Below are positions 1 through 33,954 of a DNA stretch of 40,365 nucleotides, piece by piece. Numbering within the stretch: the first letter of the stretch is position 1; each line of letters opens with the position of its first letter. The notes under the pieces were generated by a model. The model was given only the letters and a program-made list of their open reading frames with translations. It made no database searches and was not told the origin of the DNA. The position numbers and the translations under genes are program-made. Origin of the DNA: a virus; IMG/VR virus record IMGVR_UViG_3300042864_000135, positions 1 to 40,365 of that record. The stretch is one strand, 5' to 3'.

Positions 1-969
1 CCAACAGGTCGTTTAACTGGTTCTTATACTGGTATTACAGGTGTAGGTACGGTTGCTACAGGTGATTGGGCAGCTAACGCAATTGCTGTATCTTATGGCG
101 GTACTGGCGCGTCTAACACAACAGATGCACGTACTAACTTAGGCTTAACAATTGGTACAGATGTACAGGCATATAGTCTTCAGTTGGCTTCTGTGGCGGG
201 TTTATCTACAAATGGCTTGTTAAACCGTAGTGCAGCTAATACTGTAACTATTGCTTCAGCAGCTGACATTGTTGGCCAAATTGGATCAACAGCCGTTACT
301 AATGCTACAAACCAATCAGGCGGTACTGTAAATGCGACTACTGGAGCGTTTAGTGGGCAGGTAACAGGAAAGGCCTCTGGAACTGACACAGTAGCTTCTT
401 TTTATGCCACTACACTAGGCAGCTCTTACGCATCTATGTGGTCAAGAAGAGGCACGCCATTTACTTCTTATGTTAACCAGTCTGGAAGTTCTTATGGTCC
501 AGGAGCTTCGTTTATATACACGCACAATTCTACATACAATGGTGTTTATTCATTGGGTGTTTTAAATGACTCCGCTGCAAATGCGGGTTCATTTACTATT
601 CATCACATAGATTCTGCTGGGGCAAATTCTCAGGTATGGTACTTTTCAGGTACAAATGGTAGCTTCACTGCGCCAGGCAACGTAACAGCTTATTCAGATG
701 AGCGCTTAAAGAAAGATTGGTCTAGCGTAGGTTCTGATTTTGTTGAACGTTTAGCAGAAGTTAAGTCAGGTACGTATACCCGTATTGATTCTGGTTTAAG
801 ACAGGCTGGTGCCTCAGCTCAGGATATGCAAAAGCTTCTTCCTGAAGTTGTACAAGATGGAGAACATTTATCACTTGCATACGGTAACGCCGCGCTAGTA
901 GCTGCAATTGAATTGGCAAAACAAGTTGTTGAGCTTAAGAAAGAAATTGAACTGTTAAAGGCTAGATAA
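1..969 (+). CDS. Tail fibre protein with C-terminal S74 intramolecular chaperone (5' truncated)
   Basis: The frame is open from the first base of the window, so the gene begins upstream and only its last 322 codons are here. The N-terminal part shows fibre-type repeats rich in Gly, Thr and Asn, including a YGGTGA..AR.NLG segment common in phage tail fibres. The C-terminal ~95 residues match the peptidase_S74 endosialidase chaperone: a SDERLKKD motif near base 695 carrying the expected Ser and Lys of the self-cleavage dyad, a Q-D-M-Q-KLLPEVV segment, then a terminal Leu/Lys/Glu heptad helix. In this family the domain trimerises the fibre and cuts itself off. Its stop shares one base with the next start. 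The protein is probably a receptor-binding fibre on the virion surface. Confidence 0.88.
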   Translation, partial: PTGRLTGSYTGITGVGTVATGDWAANAIAVSYGGTGASNTTDARTNLGLTIGTDVQAYSLQLASVAGLSTNGLLNRSAANTVTIASAADIVGQIGSTAVTNATNQSGGTVNATTGAFSGQVTGKASGTDTVASFYATTLGSSYASMWSRRGTPFTSYVNQSGSSYGPGASFIYTHNSTYNGVYSLGVLNDSAANAGSFTIHHIDSAGANSQVWYFSGTNGSFTAPGNVTAYSDERLKKDWSSVGSDFVERLAEVKSGTYTRIDSGLRQAGASAQDMQKLLPEVVQDGEHLSLAYGNAALVAAIELAKQVVELKKEIELLKAR

Positions 970-1862
970 TGGCATTACCATCATCAGGCACACTTACCAT
1001 GGCTCAGATTAATGCTGAGTTTGGTAGAGGAAACAACTTAAACGCATACCGTGGGACTACTTACTACACATCTAGTGGTGGTCCTTTTACGTTCTCTTCA
1101 GGCACAATCAGCTTTAGCGACTTTTACGGCACCCAGGCTAATTCACCGGTATTTAATGCCACAATTGTTGGCAACTACGATCAATTAAACCTACGTTCTT
1201 GGGCGCTATCTAACGGTTGGAATGGTAGCGCTGCAGCTGTTATTACGTTTGCTGCTGGTTATTGGATTTACTCGTCAACCACAGGTGCAGCTGCGTTAAC
1301 AATTGATGGCTCATGGCCGAATGGTGTAACCTTTATTAACAACCAGTATGTTATTGGTATGGGTGGTAACGGTGGTATAGGTGGTGGCGGTACTGGTTTT
1401 GGCGGAGGAACTGCTTTAGCTGTAAGTACTCCTGTAACGATTTATAACTATAGTTACATAGCTGGCGGCGGTGGCGGTGGCGGTGGCGGTGGTGTTGGTG
1501 GTACTTCTACTACTTATGTATTTTCTGGCGGTGGCGGTGGCGGTGCTGGCGGTACTGGTTTAGGTACAGCTCTTGGCGGTGAGGGTCAAGCAGGTATTGG
1601 CGGCGGTGTTAACGGAGCCCCTGGCGGTAATAATTACGCTAATAGTGGTGGTGCTGGCGGTGGTGCGGGCGGTGCGGGCGGTGCAAACGGTACTGGAGGA
1701 AACGGGGGCTCTGGCGGAGGCTGGGGCGCGGTGGGCAACGCTGGTGCTGCTGGCGGTGCTGGTGCTGCTGGCGGTGCAGGTGGTGCCGCAGGCAATTGCA
1801 CAAGCGGTAATGGGTTTATTACATGGGCTGTTACTGGAAATAGATTAGGACCTTTAGGATGA
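969..1862 (+). CDS. Glycine-rich tail adhesin-like protein (copy 1)
   Basis: This 297-residue protein has an N-terminal ~60-residue segment (LPSSGTLTMAQINAEFG, then a GTISFSDFYG stretch) seen at the start of many phage tail-tip proteins. A central beta-rich domain follows, then a C-terminal half dominated by GG-X repeats, including ten consecutive Gly at 1464-1493. The composition resembles gp38-type adhesins of T-even-like phages, whose Gly-rich loops form polyglycine II bundles and bind the receptor; that analogy is inferred from composition, not from homology I can demonstrate. It lies directly after the S74 fibre (TAATGG overlap) and before a small unknown gene (ATGA overlap), so it is translated in a fibre operon. 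Two other Gly-rich proteins lie at 5107 and 6862. Confidence 0.75.
   Translation: MALPSSGTLTMAQINAEFGRGNNLNAYRGTTYYTSSGGPFTFSSGTISFSDFYGTQANSPVFNATIVGNYDQLNLRSWALSNGWNGSAAAVITFAAGYWIYSSTTGAAALTIDGSWPNGVTFINNQYVIGMGGNGGIGGGGTGFGGGTALAVSTPVTIYNYSYIAGGGGGGGGGGVGGTSTTYVFSGGGGGGAGGTGLGTALGGEGQAGIGGGVNGAPGGNNYANSGGAGGGAGGAGGANGTGGNGGSGGGWGAVGNAGAAGGAGAAGGAGGAAGNCTSGNGFITWAVTGNRLGPLG
1464..1493 (+). repeat. In-frame GGCGGT hexamer microsatellite in adhesin gene
   Basis: The stretch encodes ten Gly codons. Bases 1467-1490 are four exact tandem GGCGGT units, preceded by GGC and followed by GGT. Units are multiples of three, so slippage would change loop length rather than frame. Shorter runs of the same type occur downstream at about 1528-1545. 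Confidence 0.85.
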
Positions 1863-2116
1863 TTACAGAAAAACATTTAGTACTTAATGTCTTAACAGGG
1901 CAGTACACATATTTAGAAAATAAAGAAGACGTTGCACCGCTAGTGGTTCAATACGCTCTTGAATTGTATTACGCCCAAACAAGTAATTTGTATTACAGAG
2001 CTGCTTTTGTTGACGAGCATAACTATGAATATATGGATGAGTCTGGTAAAAACGGAACTGAAATACCAGATGAGCTATTAGCTGACGCAATTAGTAAAAT
2101 TAATGAGATTTTATAA
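1859..2116 (+). CDS. Hypothetical protein, 85 aa, fibre operon
   Basis: I do not recognise this 85-residue acidic protein, which is rich in Tyr and Glu. It contains no Cys and no predicted membrane segment. The N-terminus (EKHLVLNVLTGQYTYLE) looks like a small beta hairpin and the C-terminus (PDELLADAISKINEIL) an amphipathic helix. Its start overlaps the adhesin stop by four bases (ATGA), and its end overlaps the first cupin gene by 14 bases, so it is translationally coupled to both. A small adhesin-associated or assembly factor is one possibility, by position only. Confidence 0.65.
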   Translation: MITEKHLVLNVLTGQYTYLENKEDVAPLVVQYALELYYAQTSNLYYRAAFVDEHNYEYMDESGKNGTEIPDELLADAISKINEIL

Positions 2117-2648
2117 ATTACCCGAGCTAGACATCCCAGATTCTTGGGAGAATGTAGACTTGTTTTTAGACTGGTATATGGAAAAAAATATGCCTATACG
2201 GTTTGGTGAAAACCAAGAAGTTTTTGTGTCTGATGATGCTACTGCTGTTTGCCTGTTTAGGCATGGGCAATTTCAAGTTGAGTTATATAGTATACATCCA
2301 GGGCCATTAGTACAAACGCACGAGCATCCTGGGGTAGAAGTCGTAAAGGTAAGATTTAATGCGAATGAAGCTGGTGGCTTTCCAACACTACGCAAAGGTC
2401 AATCACATGGCGATGGCTTTAGATTAGAAGGAGAGAAGGTAGGATTTCCTTTATTAGCTGTTCAGCATTGGGTCAATGGAGAAAAACCAACCACAGTTGC
2501 TGCTCAGTGGAAAGGCAAAACAGTTGGTCCATTGCATGAAGATTTAATAAGACGCTTTCATCCAAACGCACTTGTTATAAACGGTTACGCCGATATTACA
2601 AGGACCATGGATTACTTAAAAGAGGTTAAAAATGTGGCAAACGGTTGA
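2103..2648 (+). CDS. Cupin-like protein (paralogue 1 of 2)
   Basis: This 181-residue protein has a cupin-type metal motif H73-x-H75-P-G-x-x-E79 in a predicted beta-strand context (VELYSIHPG before it). The C-terminal part, HWVNGEKPTTVAAQWKGKT followed by GPLHEDL, lines up with the same region of the next gene, showing that the two arose by duplication. The N-terminal half of both carries a W-Y-x(2-5)-N-M-P signature. Cupins bind Fe, Mn or Zn and serve as oxygenases, isomerases or sugar epimerases; no substrate can be read here. This copy has about 30 extra C-terminal residues compared with its paralogue. It lies with an oxygenase and a methyltransferase between fibre genes, which suggests modification of a virion or cell-surface molecule. 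Confidence 0.68.
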   Translation: MRFYKLPELDIPDSWENVDLFLDWYMEKNMPIRFGENQEVFVSDDATAVCLFRHGQFQVELYSIHPGPLVQTHEHPGVEVVKVRFNANEAGGFPTLRKGQSHGDGFRLEGEKVGFPLLAVQHWVNGEKPTTVAAQWKGKTVGPLHEDLIRRFHPNALVINGYADITRTMDYLKEVKNVANG

Positions 2649-3096
2649 AGAATTCGCCTCTTGGTACAAGGCTAATAATATGCCAATGCGACCACCCAAA
2701 GACGATCCTGTTTATGTTACAGAGATTAGTATGAGCTACGTTTTGTTTCGTGATGGACAATTTCAAGCAGAGTTGTATTTGGTTAAACCAAACACTGGTT
2801 CCCCACAACATAGTCATCCTGGTATTGAAAACATAATCATGCTCATGGGCGGTGACATAACTCTTGAAGATAAATCGGGCGCGCGGCTTTCTCCCCCACA
2901 AGGGATGGATATATTTGGTCTTTTAGGTAACCCAATCCGTAACGGTGAAACACATGCGTTGCTTTGCGGTGATAAAGGTGGTGCTTTTTTAAGTCTTGAA
3001 AAATGGGATGAAGGCATTAAACCAACCAGTGTGACTATTCGCTGGGAAGGCGAAACATGTGGTGATTCACATACGGCATTGGTAGATGTTTCATGA
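2632..3096 (+). CDS. Cupin-like protein (paralogue 2 of 2)
   Basis: This 154-residue protein is a paralogue of the preceding gene. It carries H60-S-H62-P-G-I-E66, the typical first cupin motif, followed by a LMGGDITLED strand pair. The C-terminal KWDEGIKPTSVTIRWEGE segment matches the corresponding part of paralogue 1. The start at 2632 overlaps the upstream stop by 17 bases, and its own TGA overlaps the oxygenase start (ATGA at 3093). Function beyond probable metal binding is unknown. Keeping two divergent copies side by side suggests a heteromer or two related substrates (inference). Confidence 0.7.
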   Translation: MWQTVEEFASWYKANNMPMRPPKDDPVYVTEISMSYVLFRDGQFQAELYLVKPNTGSPQHSHPGIENIIMLMGGDITLEDKSGARLSPPQGMDIFGLLGNPIRNGETHALLCGDKGGAFLSLEKWDEGIKPTSVTIRWEGETCGDSHTALVDVS

Positions 3097-3719
3097 TTAA
3101 AGAAATATTCCCGATCAAAATTTATACGGCCCAGTTTCCAGATTTTGAATTAATTCAATCAGACCTTGAAGCAGAAATCCGTGCGTATTTTGACGTGGAC
3201 AGAGAGGCCTTTAGTAAGCACCGTTTGTTTAATAACTCGTATAGCTTAGAGGGCACGCTGCCACACGAAGTGCGGGATTTACATAAACGGTTAAAAAATC
3301 AAAAAATTGTTGAGTTTATTGAACATCACATAAGTGAATATTGGAAAGAGCTTGGTTTTTATACTAACTCAAAGCCAGTTATAGACCACATGTGGGCTAA
3401 CTTGACGCCAAAAGGCGGCAACATTATCCAGCACAATCACAACCCGTTTGAAATAGCTGGTTCTTTTTACGTAAATGCAACCCCAGATACGGGGTGTGTT
3501 GTTATGGTGGACCCACTTGAAGTTATTAGGGGTAGATTACCTGTATATAGTTCTTCGGAATCAAAGCAAGGCCGTTACTTTTTTGACCACGTAGAACCTC
3601 CAGCGCCTGGTAAACTTGTATTATTTCCAGGCTGGTTGTACCATAAAACCCAACCAAACCCCAGCGATAAAGAACGCATCGTTATGGGTATAAACGTGCA
3701 TAATTCTTTAAGGGTGTAG
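3093..3719 (+). CDS. Putative 2OG-Fe(II) dioxygenase
   Basis: This 208-residue protein matches the 2OG-FeII_Oxy_5 type found in many marine phages. A proximal His cluster (H114-N-H116-N in a QHNHNPFEIAGSFYVN block) provides candidate iron ligands. The distal His is in LVLFPGWLYH (H184), and Arg195 in the ERIVMGINVH block would bind 2-oxoglutarate. These enzymes hydroxylate proteins, sugars or small molecules; the substrate here is unknown. Which residue supplies the acidic ligand is not clear by eye, so activity is inferred. It is coupled to the cupin pair by an ATGA overlap and is followed after one base by a methyltransferase. The position among adhesin genes suggests tail-protein or surface modification, but nothing in the sequence proves that. 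Confidence 0.78.
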   Translation: MIKEIFPIKIYTAQFPDFELIQSDLEAEIRAYFDVDREAFSKHRLFNNSYSLEGTLPHEVRDLHKRLKNQKIVEFIEHHISEYWKELGFYTNSKPVIDHMWANLTPKGGNIIQHNHNPFEIAGSFYVNATPDTGCVVMVDPLEVIRGRLPVYSSSESKQGRYFFDHVEPPAPGKLVLFPGWLYHKTQPNPSDKERIVMGINVHNSLRV

Positions 3720-3720
3720 T

Positions 3721-4392
3721 ATGCCAAGAATACCAGAAACAGAAGTGATGACTGATCCCGCAGCTGTACAGGCATACGCTGATATGACTAAAGCACCCCC
3801 AACTTTAGTGTACACAACATTATTACCAGTACTTCCAGTAAATGATAGTTTTTTAAAGATAGCCGATATTGGCTGCGGCCCTTGCGGCTACCATACTGGC
3901 CTGTATGAAAAGTACCCTAATTCAGTTATTGATGCGTATGACGCCTCTGCGCCAATGCTTGCTGCAGCGCAAAATTGTATAGACCCAAATAAAACAAGTT
4001 TGTACGAGGTATTTTTTCCCGATACGTCTTTAGCGCAAGCTCAGTATGATTTGGTTTGGGCATCCATATTTTTGCACCAACTACCAGACCCTTCTGTATG
4101 TTGGAATACTATTAAACAATTAGGTAAACCTGGCGGGTCTTTTATAGTGTATGACTTAGTTCGGGTAGAAGATGAAAGTGCTTGCTGGGACATAATAAAC
4201 GCTTTAACCCCACAAGCTCCAGACGTTTTTAAACAAGACTTTTTTAATACTTTGCGAGCTTCTTTTACTGTAGAAGAAATAACGGCGCAAATAACGGAAG
4301 CTGGTTTAACGGCTTTGGTGCGCCCTTTATGGGTACAGTTACCAAATGGCACTAACGTTTGCCAAGTAGCTTATATAGAAGGTACACTATAG
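3721..4392 (+). CDS. Class I SAM-dependent methyltransferase
   Basis: This 223-residue protein has a clear class I Rossmann SAM site: motif I (KIADIGCGPCGYHTG, residues 46-60), an acidic strand-2 end in VIDAYDASAPML (around residue 74), and motif IV-like FDLVWASIFLHQL. It lacks the DNA-methylase catalytic motifs DPPY, NPPY or PCQ, so it more likely acts on a protein, lipid or small molecule. The closest style is the methyltransferase type 11/12 superfamily. It is the fourth gene of the cupin-oxygenase cassette, starting one base after the oxygenase stop and ending one base before a fibre-repeat gene. The target is unknown. Confidence 0.82.
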   Translation: MPRIPETEVMTDPAAVQAYADMTKAPPTLVYTTLLPVLPVNDSFLKIADIGCGPCGYHTGLYEKYPNSVIDAYDASAPMLAAAQNCIDPNKTSLYEVFFPDTSLAQAQYDLVWASIFLHQLPDPSVCWNTIKQLGKPGGSFIVYDLVRVEDESACWDIINALTPQAPDVFKQDFFNTLRASFTVEEITAQITEAGLTALVRPLWVQLPNGTNVCQVAYIEGTL

Positions 4393-4393
4393 T

Positions 4394-5092
4394 ATGTTTG
4401 CGGCCTCATCATTCGCAGAAGCCCCATTTGCCAGCGGTACGGTAGCTGAAGGCACGGTTGCGTATCCTGAAGGCGTATTTGCTACTGGTCAAACAGGCAC
4501 CCCATTTGTAACAGGTACAGGTAATACATCAACCACGGGTGTTGAAGGCACGGTATTTGTAGGTACCGTAAGCGTTATAGGTCAAGTTGTTGCCCCCGTT
4601 ACTGGGCTATCTGCTACTGGTTTTATTGGTGACGTTACGATTGCTGGCGCCGCAATATTCTCAGTTACTGGTGTTCAAGGAACCACTGCTTTAGGTACGG
4701 CAACTGCTAATGCGGCGGCTGTTGTTACGCTTACTGGCTTACAGGCTATTGGTGAAATTGGTAACGTAAGCACAATATCTAAAGCGGTTGTTGATGTAAC
4801 AGGCATTGTAGGTACAACATTCTTAGGCACTGCTACTGTATCTGCTAACGTGGCCGCCCCTGTTACTGGTGTAGTAGGAACCACTGCTTTAGGTAATGTC
4901 AGCATTATTGGTAAAGCTATAGTCACAGTTACGGGCGTTTCTGCTACAGGAATTGTTGCTCAGGTCTTGGTGTGGGGTTTAATTGATGATGAGCAAGTGC
5001 CAAATTGGACACAAATAACTACCACAGAATCACCAACTTGGGCTAATATTACAACATCTGAAGACCCTACTTGGGTTAATATACCGTCATAA
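4394..5092 (+). CDS. Virion protein with 22-residue beta repeats and C-terminal Trp repeats
   Basis: In this 232-residue protein, residues 48-179 are six exact-length 22-residue repeats of the form TG-h-x-(G/A)-T/I-x-x-h-G-x-h-(T/S), with a partial seventh to about residue 193. Each unit starts with TGV, TGL or TGI and predicts short beta strands, suggesting a solenoid or fibrous shaft. The C-terminus has three spaced Trp motifs (W-T-Q-I, W-A-N-I, W-V-N-I, each following an S/D-P-x-W pattern). Proteins of this type occur in tailed phages of aquatic bacteria as structural components without assigned function. It sits between the methyltransferase and a fibre gene. Composition is almost free of Cys, Lys and Arg, as in surface fibres. 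Confidence 0.65.
   Translation: MFAASSFAEAPFASGTVAEGTVAYPEGVFATGQTGTPFVTGTGNTSTTGVEGTVFVGTVSVIGQVVAPVTGLSATGFIGDVTIAGAAIFSVTGVQGTTALGTATANAAAVVTLTGLQAIGEIGNVSTISKAVVDVTGIVGTTFLGTATVSANVAAPVTGVVGTTALGNVSIIGKAIVTVTGVSATGIVAQVLVWGLIDDEQVPNWTQITTTESPTWANITTSEDPTWVNIPS
4535..4930 (+). repeat. 66-bp coding repeat, six units
   Basis: Six consecutive 66-bp units encode the 22-residue repeats beginning TGV, TGL, TGV, TGL, TGI and TGV. The units are diverged at DNA level but of identical length, with a partial seventh following. Confidence 0.75.
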
Positions 5093-30312: not shown

Positions 30313-30951
30313 TTATTCCTTGATGTGTGAATCCATGTCGTCGTAGCCTATAGATGAACCCCATAGGTGGTCAGCAAAATGATGACCTTCAGCCTTGCTA
30401 ATAAAACCTGTATGGTGGTGCTGAATGAAGAAGTGTGACGGGTAAACAGTAAACGGTGCTACGTTAGCGAAGTAAACCTCAGTTATGAGTTTAGGTCCTG
30501 TAATTAACCATGCTAACTTATCTTCACTGCAATCTACTGTATGTAACCTGTCAATACATTCTTTCCAAAACGGGTGACGTTTTTCACCACCCATAAACGT
30601 AGTTGCAATTAGATTGTTCCTAATATGTTCCTGTTCCCATGACGAGAAGGCGGGCGCCTCAATTAACCAATCTTCTAGCGGGCGCTTGCAATAGCTGTCT
30701 GCATCCAAGGCAACACCACCAAAGCGATACAGAATCTCATAACGCATCAGGTCAGCAACCCCTGCGTAATCTTTCTTATCCATCATTTGGTCAATCTGCT
30801 TTTGGTTATGCCATGGGTAGTTAGTCAAATGGTCATTACCCCATACATGCAAATCATAATCAGGGTTCTTAGCACGCCAACTGTCAATACATTTGACTGG
30901 CATCTTTGAATCATCGCCAATCCATACGACGTGCAACATCTTAGGTGTCAT
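30313..30951 (-). CDS. GT32-like glycosyltransferase, 212 aa
   Basis: The ATG at 30951 is chosen (TAATG with the polymerase stop, GGAG 7 bases upstream) rather than an in-frame TTG at 30957. PKMLHVVWIGDDSKMP opens the domain; ADLMRYEILYRFGGVALDADS contains the DxD nucleotide-sugar site; PFWKECIDRL and LITGPKLITEVYF complete the OCH1/capsular-sugar transferase pattern (Gly_transf_sug). It should transfer a hexose from a nucleotide sugar. Target unknown: phage DNA bases, virion proteins or host surface sugars are possible. Location inside the replication block favours an early function. Confidence 0.83.
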   Translation of the reverse strand: MTPKMLHVVWIGDDSKMPVKCIDSWRAKNPDYDLHVWGNDHLTNYPWHNQKQIDQMMDKKDYAGVADLMRYEILYRFGGVALDADSYCKRPLEDWLIEAPAFSSWEQEHIRNNLIATTFMGGEKRHPFWKECIDRLHTVDCSEDKLAWLITGPKLITEVYFANVAPFTVYPSHFFIQHHHTGFISKAEGHHFADHLWGSSIGYDDMDSHIKE

Positions 30952-32771
30952 TAACAATCTCCGTAACTTCTTCCGTAGCCTGCCTCACAAGCCACAGGTA
31001 ATCCCCTTGCCCAATCGGGAGCCCAACTCATACACTCCATAACATACGCCATGGCTTCGTCAGCTTCCTCTTTAGGTGCTATGCACGCAATCGCATCATG
31101 TACCGTTAACACGGGTCTATATTTTTTAGCGATGCGTAGCATCTGCTCTACGATAATACATCTTGCTAGTGCTTGGCAAACGTTTTCTACTAACTTGCCA
31201 CCATAAAGTTTGGTTTGCCCCTTACGATTGTCATACACATACTGCCAACCTTCTTCAGTCTGCACCTTGCGTAGGTTTGGATAGCGTTGATACAAGCCGT
31301 TAGGCAACAAGATACCCTGCTCACCCATCACCTGTACCACACCGTTACCAAAGTCAGCGGTCTGATTCTTGACCATGGCATCAATCACCGCCTTACCCGC
31401 ACTCCATAGCTCAGGAATCTTAGCGTACGTATTTCGGTACGCACCAATCGCTAGTGAACATTCTTCGAGCTCGAGGTATGTGTTAAAGGTTTTAAGTTGG
31501 GCTTGGAATTTTGGTGCTCCCATGCCGTAACCTGCGCCAAGAATAGTTGTCTTACCCACAAATCTTTCATGTGCTTCAATGTCGGCGACAGGCTTGTTGT
31601 ATATAGCCGACGCCATCTTTTTATAGACATCTTCTTTCCTTGTAAATGCTTCGGTTAAGTCGTCTTGACCCGCCCACCATGCCAACATACGAGCCTCAAT
31701 CTGCGAGGAGTCAGCATCAATCATGACATAGCCATCAGGAGCCACAATCGCTTTCTTGAGCTTGCCACCATTCGCGCCACGGCTAGGTAAGTTCTGCAAA
31801 TTAATCTTGTCAGCCCCGCCCCATCTGCCTGTATGAGCCGCATAGTAGCTTAGCGGAATAGGTAAATCACCACGCTTAGAAATCTCAATAAACCGTTGTG
31901 TTCGGGTTTCTTCTAGGGTAGACTTACTCCCAAGACGTGCTGCGACTAAGGCCTGAACTCGCTCATCAGGATGCTCAGCAAGGGCTTTAAACGCCTCGTC
32001 TGATTTAGCCAAAGCTAAGGCTTCCTTACCTGTAACGGCGCTTATCTTCATCGGTGGTTCAACACCAAAGCCACGTAGTAACTCAGCAAACTTTAAGTTG
32101 CTCATCAACTCATCACGAGATTCAACTCCACAATCCTCAAGCAATTTCGCCTTACGGTACTGCACCTCAAGCAAGTGAGCTTCGAGCTGTTTCTTATCCA
32201 GCTGTAACGACGGTTCTGAAAACATCTTTACCGTTAAAGATATGATTTGTAGCTCGGTCAATTTAAAACTTGGTACTAACTTTTGGAATAGCTTGTAGGT
32301 CAGTTCCACGTCGTTAATACAATATCCGCCATACTTATTAATAGCGTCAGCGTCAAAATCACTGCGTCTCTTACCGAGGGCGTCGACGACTTCCGTACCC
32401 TTTTCCCCAAGCGCATAATATACAGATAGCTTTGCAAGAGAGTTACCCACCTCACTACCATGGAGCGCCCTAGCCATACTAAGTGTGTCGAGCACGGCAC
32501 GTGGCTTAATACCAAACCGCCAATTGAGAATAGCAGCATCAAACATAGCATTATGGGCAAGCAAAGCACTACTAGCCCAATCATACCCACCCAAAAACTC
32601 AGCAATCTCATCATGGCTACCGCTAAACCATCTTGTTTCATTTCCGTTCTCCTTAACAGCTACGCCTATAGTTTCAAACTCAGGACTGCGTATATATTCC
32701 TCAGTTGTCATTTTGGACAAACTAAATAACTTATCGTAATAAGTCTCAAAGTCCAGTGTGATTATGTTCAT
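30951..32771 (-). CDS. Family A DNA polymerase with 3'-5' exonuclease, 606 aa
   Basis: The start at 32771 (MNIITLDFETYYD) is preferred: it makes TAATG with the upstream stop and follows GGAGATTACTACTA. The exonuclease carboxylates are D7-x-E9, D78 (AHNAMFDAA) and D154 (YCIND). Polymerase motif A is DADSSQIEAR (D354). Motif B has R403, K407 and Y415-G416 in KTTILGAGYGMG. Motif C is TVHDAIACI (D559). The residue at the place of E. coli Pol I F762 is L411, and motif C reads HDA rather than the usual HDE. There is no 5' nuclease domain. It is the replicative polymerase and works with the primase-helicase and SSB of the next unit. Confidence 0.93.
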   Translation of the reverse strand: MNIITLDFETYYDKLFSLSKMTTEEYIRSPEFETIGVAVKENGNETRWFSGSHDEIAEFLGGYDWASSALLAHNAMFDAAILNWRFGIKPRAVLDTLSMARALHGSEVGNSLAKLSVYYALGEKGTEVVDALGKRRSDFDADAINKYGGYCINDVELTYKLFQKLVPSFKLTELQIISLTVKMFSEPSLQLDKKQLEAHLLEVQYRKAKLLEDCGVESRDELMSNLKFAELLRGFGVEPPMKISAVTGKEALALAKSDEAFKALAEHPDERVQALVAARLGSKSTLEETRTQRFIEISKRGDLPIPLSYYAAHTGRWGGADKINLQNLPSRGANGGKLKKAIVAPDGYVMIDADSSQIEARMLAWWAGQDDLTEAFTRKEDVYKKMASAIYNKPVADIEAHERFVGKTTILGAGYGMGAPKFQAQLKTFNTYLELEECSLAIGAYRNTYAKIPELWSAGKAVIDAMVKNQTADFGNGVVQVMGEQGILLPNGLYQRYPNLRKVQTEEGWQYVYDNRKGQTKLYGGKLVENVCQALARCIIVEQMLRIAKKYRPVLTVHDAIACIAPKEEADEAMAYVMECMSWAPDWARGLPVACEAGYGRSYGDC

Positions 32772-33199
32772 TAGTAGTAATCTCCATGCCCCAAAGGCCG
32801 ACTCGCAACTTCTTTGAATCGTTCCCAAAGGGTCTTTGGTTTAGGTTCTGCCATGCTTAAGGATTGTGTTGCGTATGGTGATTGGCTATATGGATAAGCT
32901 TGTTGCTGAGCAAGTGACTGTTGTCTTAACCGCACTTCGGCTTCCAACTGTTCTCTGTATCTGCGATTAGCTTCTTCCCACTCAACCTTACGTTCAATAG
33001 CTCGCACCGCCTGATACTGCTCAACTACTTCAGGGTGGTTCGCTTCAATAAACCATTTCATGAACTTATGAAACTCTTGGCTGTCCCAATTATTCATATC
33101 AAGTGATTCATTGTCGTGAGCTGGTCTAGAAGTTATCGCACCAAAGCCTGCTGTTGTGGGGTAAAAAGCCCCTGGGGTAGGGTTTCGTCCGACCATCAT
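32771..33199 (-). CDS. W-HP motif family protein D, 142 aa
   Basis: Residues ~45-72 read FMKWFIEANHPEVVEQYQAV then RAIERKVE, a motif also found in three small proteins at the right end of the window. The remainder is a charged helix (EEANRRYREQLEAEVRLRQQ) followed by a Gln/Tyr/Ser-rich linker and a basic C-terminus LWERFKEVASRPLGHGDYY. Not recognised otherwise. It overlaps the glycosyltransferase stop (ATGATG) and the polymerase start (TAATG), so its amount is coupled to the polymerase; a polymerase accessory or scaffolding role is possible. Confidence 0.7.
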   Translation of the reverse strand: MMVGRNPTPGAFYPTTAGFGAITSRPAHDNESLDMNNWDSQEFHKFMKWFIEANHPEVVEQYQAVRAIERKVEWEEANRRYREQLEAEVRLRQQSLAQQQAYPYSQSPYATQSLSMAEPKPKTLWERFKEVASRPLGHGDYY

Positions 33200-33954
33200 G
33201 ATACCCTCTGCAACGCACCACTAAAGATGTAAGTCCCAGTATGGGACAACTGCACCCATGGAGCCGCATGAACCTTGAAGCCATGCTTGCGTGCTAACTT
33301 ACAGAAATGGTAGTCCTCTGACAGCAAACGATTGTTTGATTCAGGGTCAATGCTTGTGGCAAAGAACTCTTTAATAATCTTTGGGGTTCTTACTGTATCA
33401 ACGGCTAAATACATATCACTGTTGTACTCAGGTACTTTGTCGGCTAAAGCTTCAAACACCTCGCGTTTAATCAGCATGAAGCCTGTGCCACCGTTCTGAA
33501 TCTCAAGTAGCTCATTCATCCTAACTTCAGTTCGTTCGTTACCAACAAGGTTCACCACGAATGTGCCTGTATGGTCTTTGAGTTGGTCAGCGGGTACACC
33601 GCTATTTACAGCATCAGCCACACGTTGCCAATGGATTTCTTTCTTGGGGTACAAACCACAACAAATATCCACGTCACGTTTCACCATCTCAACGATGTCG
33701 TTTGGGTTAAACCCAATGTCGGCATCAATAAACATCAGGTGCGTTGCATCTGAGGCTAAGAAGTCATGCGCCAAACTGTTACGGGCACGGGTAATCAAGC
33801 TCTCGTTCATCATGTAGGAGTAGTACATCTTCATACCCGCACGGCTAACAACTATTGGCATTTGCATCAAAGCTGAAGCGTAGCTACCAATACACATACC
33901 ACCGTACATGGGTGTGGCTACAAATAATGTTGGTGTTTTAATCTGTTGTTCCAT
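33196..33954 (-). CDS. GT-A fold glycosyltransferase, 252 aa
   Basis: TLFVATPMYGGMCIGSYASA opens the domain, SLITRARNSLAHDFLAS and THLMFIDADIGFNPNDI (DxD) form the nucleotide-sugar site, and DICCGLYPKKEIHW, NGGTGFMLIKREVFE and LLSEDYHFCKLARKHGF complete a pattern seen in a family of phage GT-A transferases. It should add a sugar from a nucleotide sugar to an unknown acceptor. AAGGAAAATACAG precedes the ATG. It is the second transferase in the replication block (the other at 30313) and the two are not obviously homologous. Confidence 0.85.
   Translation of the reverse strand: MEQQIKTPTLFVATPMYGGMCIGSYASALMQMPIVVSRAGMKMYYSYMMNESLITRARNSLAHDFLASDATHLMFIDADIGFNPNDIVEMVKRDVDICCGLYPKKEIHWQRVADAVNSGVPADQLKDHTGTFVVNLVGNERTEVRMNELLEIQNGGTGFMLIKREVFEALADKVPEYNSDMYLAVDTVRTPKIIKEFFATSIDPESNNRLLSEDYHFCKLARKHGFKVHAAPWVQLSHTGTYIFSGALQRVS

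Follow-up and report, generated by a model that had tools for sequence, protein, structure and literature searches.

A phage auxiliary gene cassette combining an undescribed family of tandem cupins with a 2OG-Fe(II) oxygenase and a methyltransferase

Introduction

Auxiliary metabolic gene and moron cassettes of phage late operons are modular, exchangeable and placed between structural genes. This work concerns a cassette of two tandem cupin genes (cup1 and cup2), a 2-oxoglutarate (2OG)/Fe(II) oxygenase gene and an S-adenosylmethionine (SAM) methyltransferase gene in the IMG/VR virus record IMGVR_UViG_3300042864_000135, the whole of which (40,365 bases) is called the window. Modularity, exchangeability and position between structural genes are shared with the known cassettes, but the gene set, which no annotated phage record was found to contain, includes a phage-specific cupin family of its own: the window carries an auxiliary phage cassette whose cupin family is undescribed.

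The closest described relatives of the individual proteins are known from other settings. TIGR02466/PF13759 oxygenases of aquatic phages (phrog_81) occur as lone genes, in oxygenase groups or with ferrochelatase neighbours, and phage 2OG oxygenases have been discussed as auxiliary genes beside ferrochelatases in pelagiphages (PMC9599517, PMC11561400); the window oxygenase passes both family cut-offs and retains the HxH...H...R residues, but no description of such an enzyme coupled to a cupin pair was found. Among the sugar genes of the nucleotide-sugar/glycosyltransferase cluster of cyanophage P-SSM2 there are likewise a methyltransferase gene and one for a TIGR02466-like oxygenase; however, the cluster has no annotated cupin, and the window cassette has no adjoining glycosyltransferases or epimerases. 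Small metal cupins (Sthe2323, PDB 4e2g; TM1459; KdgF; Ni-quercetinase; the B. subtilis cysteine dioxygenase; DddK) have the cupin fold and a metal site of the HxH(x)3E...H type in common with the phage proteins. In sequence, however, nothing beyond a weak motif connects them (the best PDB profile match had E 0.5), no one functional family is prominent, and arrangement as an overlapping tandem pair is peculiar to the phage family. The methyltransferase has its SAM motif and fold family in common with the Methyltransf_11/25 class I enzymes (PDB 3bkw and, by weak NCBIfam matches, BioC and trans-aconitate methyltransferases). An earlier note on this DNA had known of no characterised system with this gene set, and literature searches turned up no account of a cupin-pair cassette (subscription papers and preprints lay outside their scope).

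Results

Organization of the cassette

The four cassette genes all start with ATG and are tightly packed: g85, a small gene, overlaps cup1 by 14 bases, cup1 overlaps cup2 by 17 bases, cup2 and the oxygenase gene share an ATGA (4-base overlap), and gaps of 1 base separate the oxygenase gene from the methyltransferase gene and the latter from fib232, the first of the fibre-like genes that continue from 4394 on (Table 1). The earlier note had placed four coupled genes at 2103-4392 between glycine-rich adhesin and fibre genes; the open reading frames were confirmed at these coordinates and the junctions base for base, the coupling is conserved in relatives, and the flanks were as described, except that g85, between the adhesin gene and cup1, had not been listed. 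The order g85-cup1-cup2-oxygenase was found again in independent contigs, and the ratio of non-synonymous to synonymous substitution rates (dN/dS) was 0.03-0.34 in all computable comparisons, some of them with saturated dS (0.06-0.12 for cup1 where computable, about 0.07 for g85). The cassette genes are under purifying selection, and this, together with the recurring order, argues that the cassette is not a product of chance. Promoter and terminator scans gave no excess over shuffled sequences, and no repeat longer than 10 bases common to both window ends was found.

Two cupin subfamilies with conserved metal sites

The two cupins are paralogous, as first proposed (32% over 155 amino acids, E 7e-25). 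Single-chain AlphaFold2 models built with deep family alignments confidently predict cupin folds (double-stranded beta-helix) for both: the cup2 model (predicted local distance difference test score 95.5) matched many small cupins in Foldseek (E about 1e-6, probability 1.00), while the cup1 model (91.7) gave weaker matches with low template modelling scores, so no function was assigned from them. Neither protein matched a Pfam, NCBIfam or PHROG family above cut-off (best Pfam E for cup2 0.02-0.09, under the cut-off; none for cup1), and assignment to known cupin families (DMSP (dimethylsulfoniopropionate) lyase, pirin, thiol dioxygenase) was rejected, the matches being below cut-off or at E of about 0.5 or worse. 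The putative metal ligands are conserved: H73, H75 and H102 were invariant in 47 cup1 sequences and H60, H62 and H108 in 85 cup2 sequences, and about 124 of 127 family members retained the HxHP motif and the later histidine, the acidic ligand being E, D or sometimes N. In two loci (L057, L058) the first cupin of the pair (125 amino acids) has lost all metal residues and the second retains them; this first cupin is likely a non-catalytic subunit, and the restriction of the loss to one copy is the best hint of a heteromeric pair.

Four scans of viral contigs in IMG/VR gave 143 cupin loci, 82 of them non-redundant after removal of near-identical ones, and no cupin relatives were found in 50,697 annotated phage records. 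Scans of bacterial and archaeal genomes yielded only two, although these scans begin from peptide patterns and may miss more distant cellular relatives. One (L147, 54% identity) lies in a prophage-like locus of Quisquiliibacterium transsilvanicum (Burkholderiales), in the order adhesin, DUF4376 gene, cup1, small cupin; the DUF4376 label comes from a sequence family that occurs in tail-fibre assembly regions of phages, and not every relative was confirmed separately. The other (L148:683-1637, 24%), from a Cyanobium metagenome-assembled genome, is distant and lies immediately behind the gene for a Nif11-type peptide precursor (PF07862 26.8 bits, cut-off 23.8; TIGR03798 28.5 bits, below the cut-off of 32.3). 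In the window itself no precursor gene of the kind found in clusters for ribosomally synthesised and post-translationally modified peptides (RiPPs) was recognised. As far as these scans reach, the family appears almost wholly phage-borne.

Tandem cupins were adjacent and on the same strand in every pair (43 non-redundant pairs and the window). Overlaps of 17 bases (13 of the 43, besides the window) and 11 bases (7) were the commonest junctions, with short gaps elsewhere. A tree of 126 proteins separated a cup1 side (44 rows) from a cup2 side (76 rows) with support of 100/99. Recent tandem duplication was rejected on this split: the window cupins are not local duplicates but belong to two ancient subfamilies. 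Pairs combine these subfamilies in several ways: cup1 followed by cup2 in the window, a cup2-like protein first and a cup1-like second in L031, L095 and L102, and two cup2-side proteins in most phages with the pair in a replication module. Single cup1-type genes in eight loci (L116, L118, L121, L122, L124, L126, L130, L147) adjoin an unrelated small cupin (cupS, about 119 amino acids, Cupin_2 type), placed as if replacing cup2; cupS was not alignable to the cup1/cup2 family and was rejected as a member.

Oxygenase and methyltransferase

The oxidation and methylation chemistry first suggested for the cassette fits the families of its two remaining enzymes. The oxygenase scored 83.7 bits with TIGR02466 (cut-off 62.5) and 58.9 bits with PF13759 (cut-off 27; E 7e-16); H114, H116 and H184 were present in 43 of 43 sequences and R195 in 40 of 43, from which 2OG/Fe(II)-dependent hydroxylation is predicted. 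Its best-scoring relative in annotated phages (28%) is in P-SSM2, inside the glycosyltransferase/epimerase/methyltransferase cluster. A defence or counter-defence system was rejected because no specific PADLOC model matched; the only match among the PADLOC models was of the oxygenase to a generic CRISPR-associated “2OG” model (7.5e-4).

Oxygenases beside cupin pairs fell into at least three subfamilies in at least three phage backgrounds, suggesting that the association arose more than once. The window clade is sister to those oxygenases of the large-phage islands (described below) that are not next to the cupin pair, while those adjoining the pair there belong to other subfamilies; this pattern suggests that oxygenases joined cupin pairs repeatedly, and it relates part of the window cassette to genes of the islands.

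The methyltransferase matched PF08241 (8e-11, 42.9 bits, cut-off 21.2) and PDB 3bkw (2.6e-6) and carries the SAM motif DIGCGPCG, but it was far below every NCBIfam equivalog cut-off (34.5 of 185 bits for BioC). No relatives were found in the 50,697 phage records at E 1e-5. A single-sequence query of the viral contigs also returned none, which reflects the limit of peptide patterns, since relatives do adjoin cupins.

Modular composition in relatives

Co-occurrence was counted over the 82 non-redundant loci, each once, with Fisher p values that ignore shared ancestry and so describe association and not independent events. An oxygenase lay within 1.5 kb of 22 of 43 pairs vs. 1 of 39 single-cupin loci (p 3e-7), and a methyltransferase of the window family accompanied 18 of 43 cup1-type loci vs. 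1 of 39 other cupin loci (p 1e-5). A glycine-rich adhesin was present within 2.5 kb upstream of 22 of 43 cup1-type loci and of none of the 39 others (p 2e-8). Among the adhesin-linked cup1 loci, an oxygenase was found in 8 of the 10 that also carry a second cupin and in none of the 12 that lack one (p 1e-4).

The four genes are not inseparable. In six loci (L154, L157, L096, L103, L088, L089) the cup1 end (...AAAA) runs directly into the methyltransferase ATG; in the window cup2 and the oxygenase gene occupy this junction, and the cup2 ATG overlaps the cup1 end in the same way. Therefore cup2 and the oxygenase gene form one unit gained or lost between cup1 and the methyltransferase gene. Other proteins also occupy these slots: a ThyX-type thymidylate synthase behind cup2 replaces oxygenase and methyltransferase (L005:8459-9148, PF02511 4e-21); a 4Fe-4S protein (L006, L014, L105) or, in some relatives, a 171-amino-acid protein that can replace later genes lies between cup2 and the next fibre gene; a weakly GNAT-like protein follows the pair in L009; and a sulfotransferase (PF03567) stands directly behind a cup1-type gene (L115:8525-9217, L128:8531-9220). 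The alternative occupants are mostly group-transfer or redox enzymes. In addition, a 4Fe-4S protein weakly similar to QueG and reductive dehalogenases was seen between cup2 and the oxygenase (L006:8459-9271, L008:8437-9258).

Islands of large phages

Large uncultured phages (nine contigs, Table 1) are a second home of the cupin pair. In an island of about 12 kb an oxygenase gene comes directly after the pair, and the genes around them encode a Tes-like radical SAM protein, B12-binding radical SAM proteins, a QueC-like protein, an SDR, additional oxygenases of the TIGR02466 type, Asp/Asn-hydroxylase-like proteins and a second methyltransferase (the list is pooled and individual contigs carry subsets); L102 also has a P450. 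The Tes-like protein had no match in annotated phages. The order in L095 and L102 is methyltransferase, SDR, cupin, cupin, oxygenase, the methyltransferase being of the window's family (window vs. L095: 32% over residues 1-200, E 2e-19), and the 2.5 kb upstream of these cupins yielded no glycine-rich adhesin gene. Judged by its gene content, the island looks like a biosynthetic cluster. An rIIB gene lies beside it in L095 (phrog_609, 7e-79); a search of the large-phage contigs for a T4-like capsid (PF07068) gave no signal, nor did its controls. CsgG-like and other lipoprotein/secretion-like genes were read by eye at L170:3051-4280, on the same contig as L102, and recall secretion-system genes reported in pelagiphages.

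Adhesin, g85 and other window genes

The window adhesin matched PHROG 10745 (1.9e-13), phrog_2056, a host-specificity tail fibre (0.003), and Pfam GP38 (0.015, below cut-off). In most of its non-redundant relatives with enough downstream sequence g85 and cup1 came next, and g85 nearly always accompanied this adhesin type. Cupins were absent beside other relatives of the adhesin (L162, L163-L165, L167), in one of which (L164) a g85-like gene accompanies the adhesin; g85 is thus probably related to the adhesin and not part of the enzyme cassette, and g85 as a modified peptide or precursor was rejected on the same occurrence. Since cupin-less adhesins and adhesin-less cassette families both exist, each can do without the other. 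For cup1 the link to adhesin genes is real; for cup2 and the oxygenase it does not hold generally.

On the minus strand the window also carries two glycosyltransferase-like genes, at 30313-30957 (PF04488, 6.9e-12) and 33196-33954 (Anp1-like, 2e-4, below cut-off).

Table 1. Coordinates of the cassette, its flanking genes and the large-phage island (window positions unless a contig is named)
Feature	Coordinates	Strand	Details
cup1, metal-site cupin subfamily 1	2103..2648	+	181 aa; H73, H75, E79, H102
cup2, metal-site cupin subfamily 2	2632..3096	+	154 aa; H60, H62, E66, H108
TIGR02466 / PF13759 2OG-Fe(II) oxygenase (predicted)	3093..3719	+	208 aa; HNH 114-116, H184, R195
Class I SAM-dependent methyltransferase	3721..4392	+	223 aa; motif DIGCGPCG
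cup1 end / cup2 start, 17-base overlap	2632..2648	+	sequence ATGTGGCAAACGGTTGA
cup2+oxygenase unit	2632..3720	+	presence/absence in relatives, cup1 end to methyltransferase ATG
Gly-rich tail adhesin, upstream of cassette	969..1862	+	297 aa; C-terminal half gp38-like, Gly-rich
g85, small protein	1859..2116	+	85 aa; between adhesin and cup1
fib232, fibre-like repetitive protein	4394..5092	+	1 base past methyltransferase stop
Island of about 12 kb	L095:1603-14212; L102:657-12687		same region in L019, L020, L022, L023, L025, L028, L031

Discussion

The reading that we tentatively prefer, while holding it somewhat short of probable, is that the cassette is a co-directional, probably translationally coupled late-operon module for chemical tailoring. 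Cup1 and cup2 would probably form a hetero-oligomeric metal-dependent cupin enzyme, as their adjacency, overlap and membership of two ancient subfamilies suggest; the TIGR02466 oxygenase may next hydroxylate the same substrate or a compound of the same pathway, and the SAM methyltransferase would then methylate it. A small molecule, a glycan or nucleotide-sugar, or a peptide made by the infected cell may be a more plausible target than the polypeptide of the adhesin: the large-phage islands, the P-SSM2 sugar cluster and the Nif11-type neighbour of the Cyanobium cupin all point to such compounds rather than to an adhesin chain. A host surface or signal molecule, as the earlier note had also suggested, may be the target as well. 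The cassette may stand behind an adhesin gene because cup1-type modules are inherited and exchanged at that place in these phages.

In favour of this reading are the constant same-strand adjacency of tandem cupins, the tracking of pairs by oxygenases and of cup1-type loci by methyltransferases, the return of all four families in the large-phage islands, and the group-transfer enzymes that follow other cupin genes. Several observations weigh against it. Where cupin pairs sit in a replication module, as in other phages, an oxygenase is often lacking altogether. No substrate or biosynthetic partner was identified in the window itself. Half of the cup1-type loci do follow a glycine-rich adhesin. 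Finally, aquatic phages very commonly carry TIGR02466-type oxygenases, which also cluster with other genes (PMC9599517), and hitch-hiking could account for some of the cupin-oxygenase adjacency.

Modification of the phage's own glycine-rich adhesin or fibres, by hydroxylation and methylation in late assembly, is rather unlikely as an account of the whole cassette, and possible mainly for the cup1 side. The preference of adhesins for cup1-type over other cupin loci, the g85-cup1 genes that follow most window-adhesin relatives with enough downstream sequence, and the persistence of the adhesin-cup1 association in the Burkholderiales prophage-like locus are in its favour; yet replication modules and biosynthetic islands, at a distance from any adhesin gene, contain cup2 and oxygenase genes too, related adhesins exist without cupins, and all four families come together in L095 and L102, where the 2.5 kb upstream of the cupins gave no glycine-rich adhesin. 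The adjacency to adhesin genes that the earlier note had stressed thus holds in relatives for the cup1 subfamily alone, which weakens an adhesin-specific modification for cup2 and the oxygenase.

That the genes are unrelated morons gathered in a variable late-operon slot, with the cupin pair as one enzyme and the oxygenase and methyltransferase independent of it, is also judged unlikely. Late-operon ends collect morons, the gene set varies, and a ThyX, 4Fe-4S or 171-amino-acid protein may sit in or next to the same slots; but co-occurrence by cupin type is non-random, the pair-oxygenase association is repeated across phage backgrounds with different oxygenase subfamilies, and all four families recur in an unrelated island. 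A non-enzymatic role of cup1, with its g85 or DUF4376-type neighbours, as a metal-stabilised protein in the structure or assembly of the tail tip, to which the other three genes would be additions, agrees with the order adhesin, small protein, cup1 conserved across divergent phages and with several loci that carry cup1 without cup2, oxygenase or methyltransferase, but is very improbable given the conserved HxH(x)3E...H metal set and the cup1-type genes inside the biosynthetic island (L031, L095, L102).

The cassette defines a phage cupin family missed by current family libraries and a recurring enzyme combination, and its genes can be cloned to find the substrates of the many orphan oxygenases that aquatic phages encode. 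A true link between cassette and island would also mean that phages carry sizeable biosynthetic clusters. It is conceivable, though somewhat doubtful, that the cassette modules and the large-phage islands are pieces of an undescribed biosynthetic pathway encoded by phages, almost all of them uncultured, whose product, made during infection, would be a modified sugar, nucleotide or peptide.

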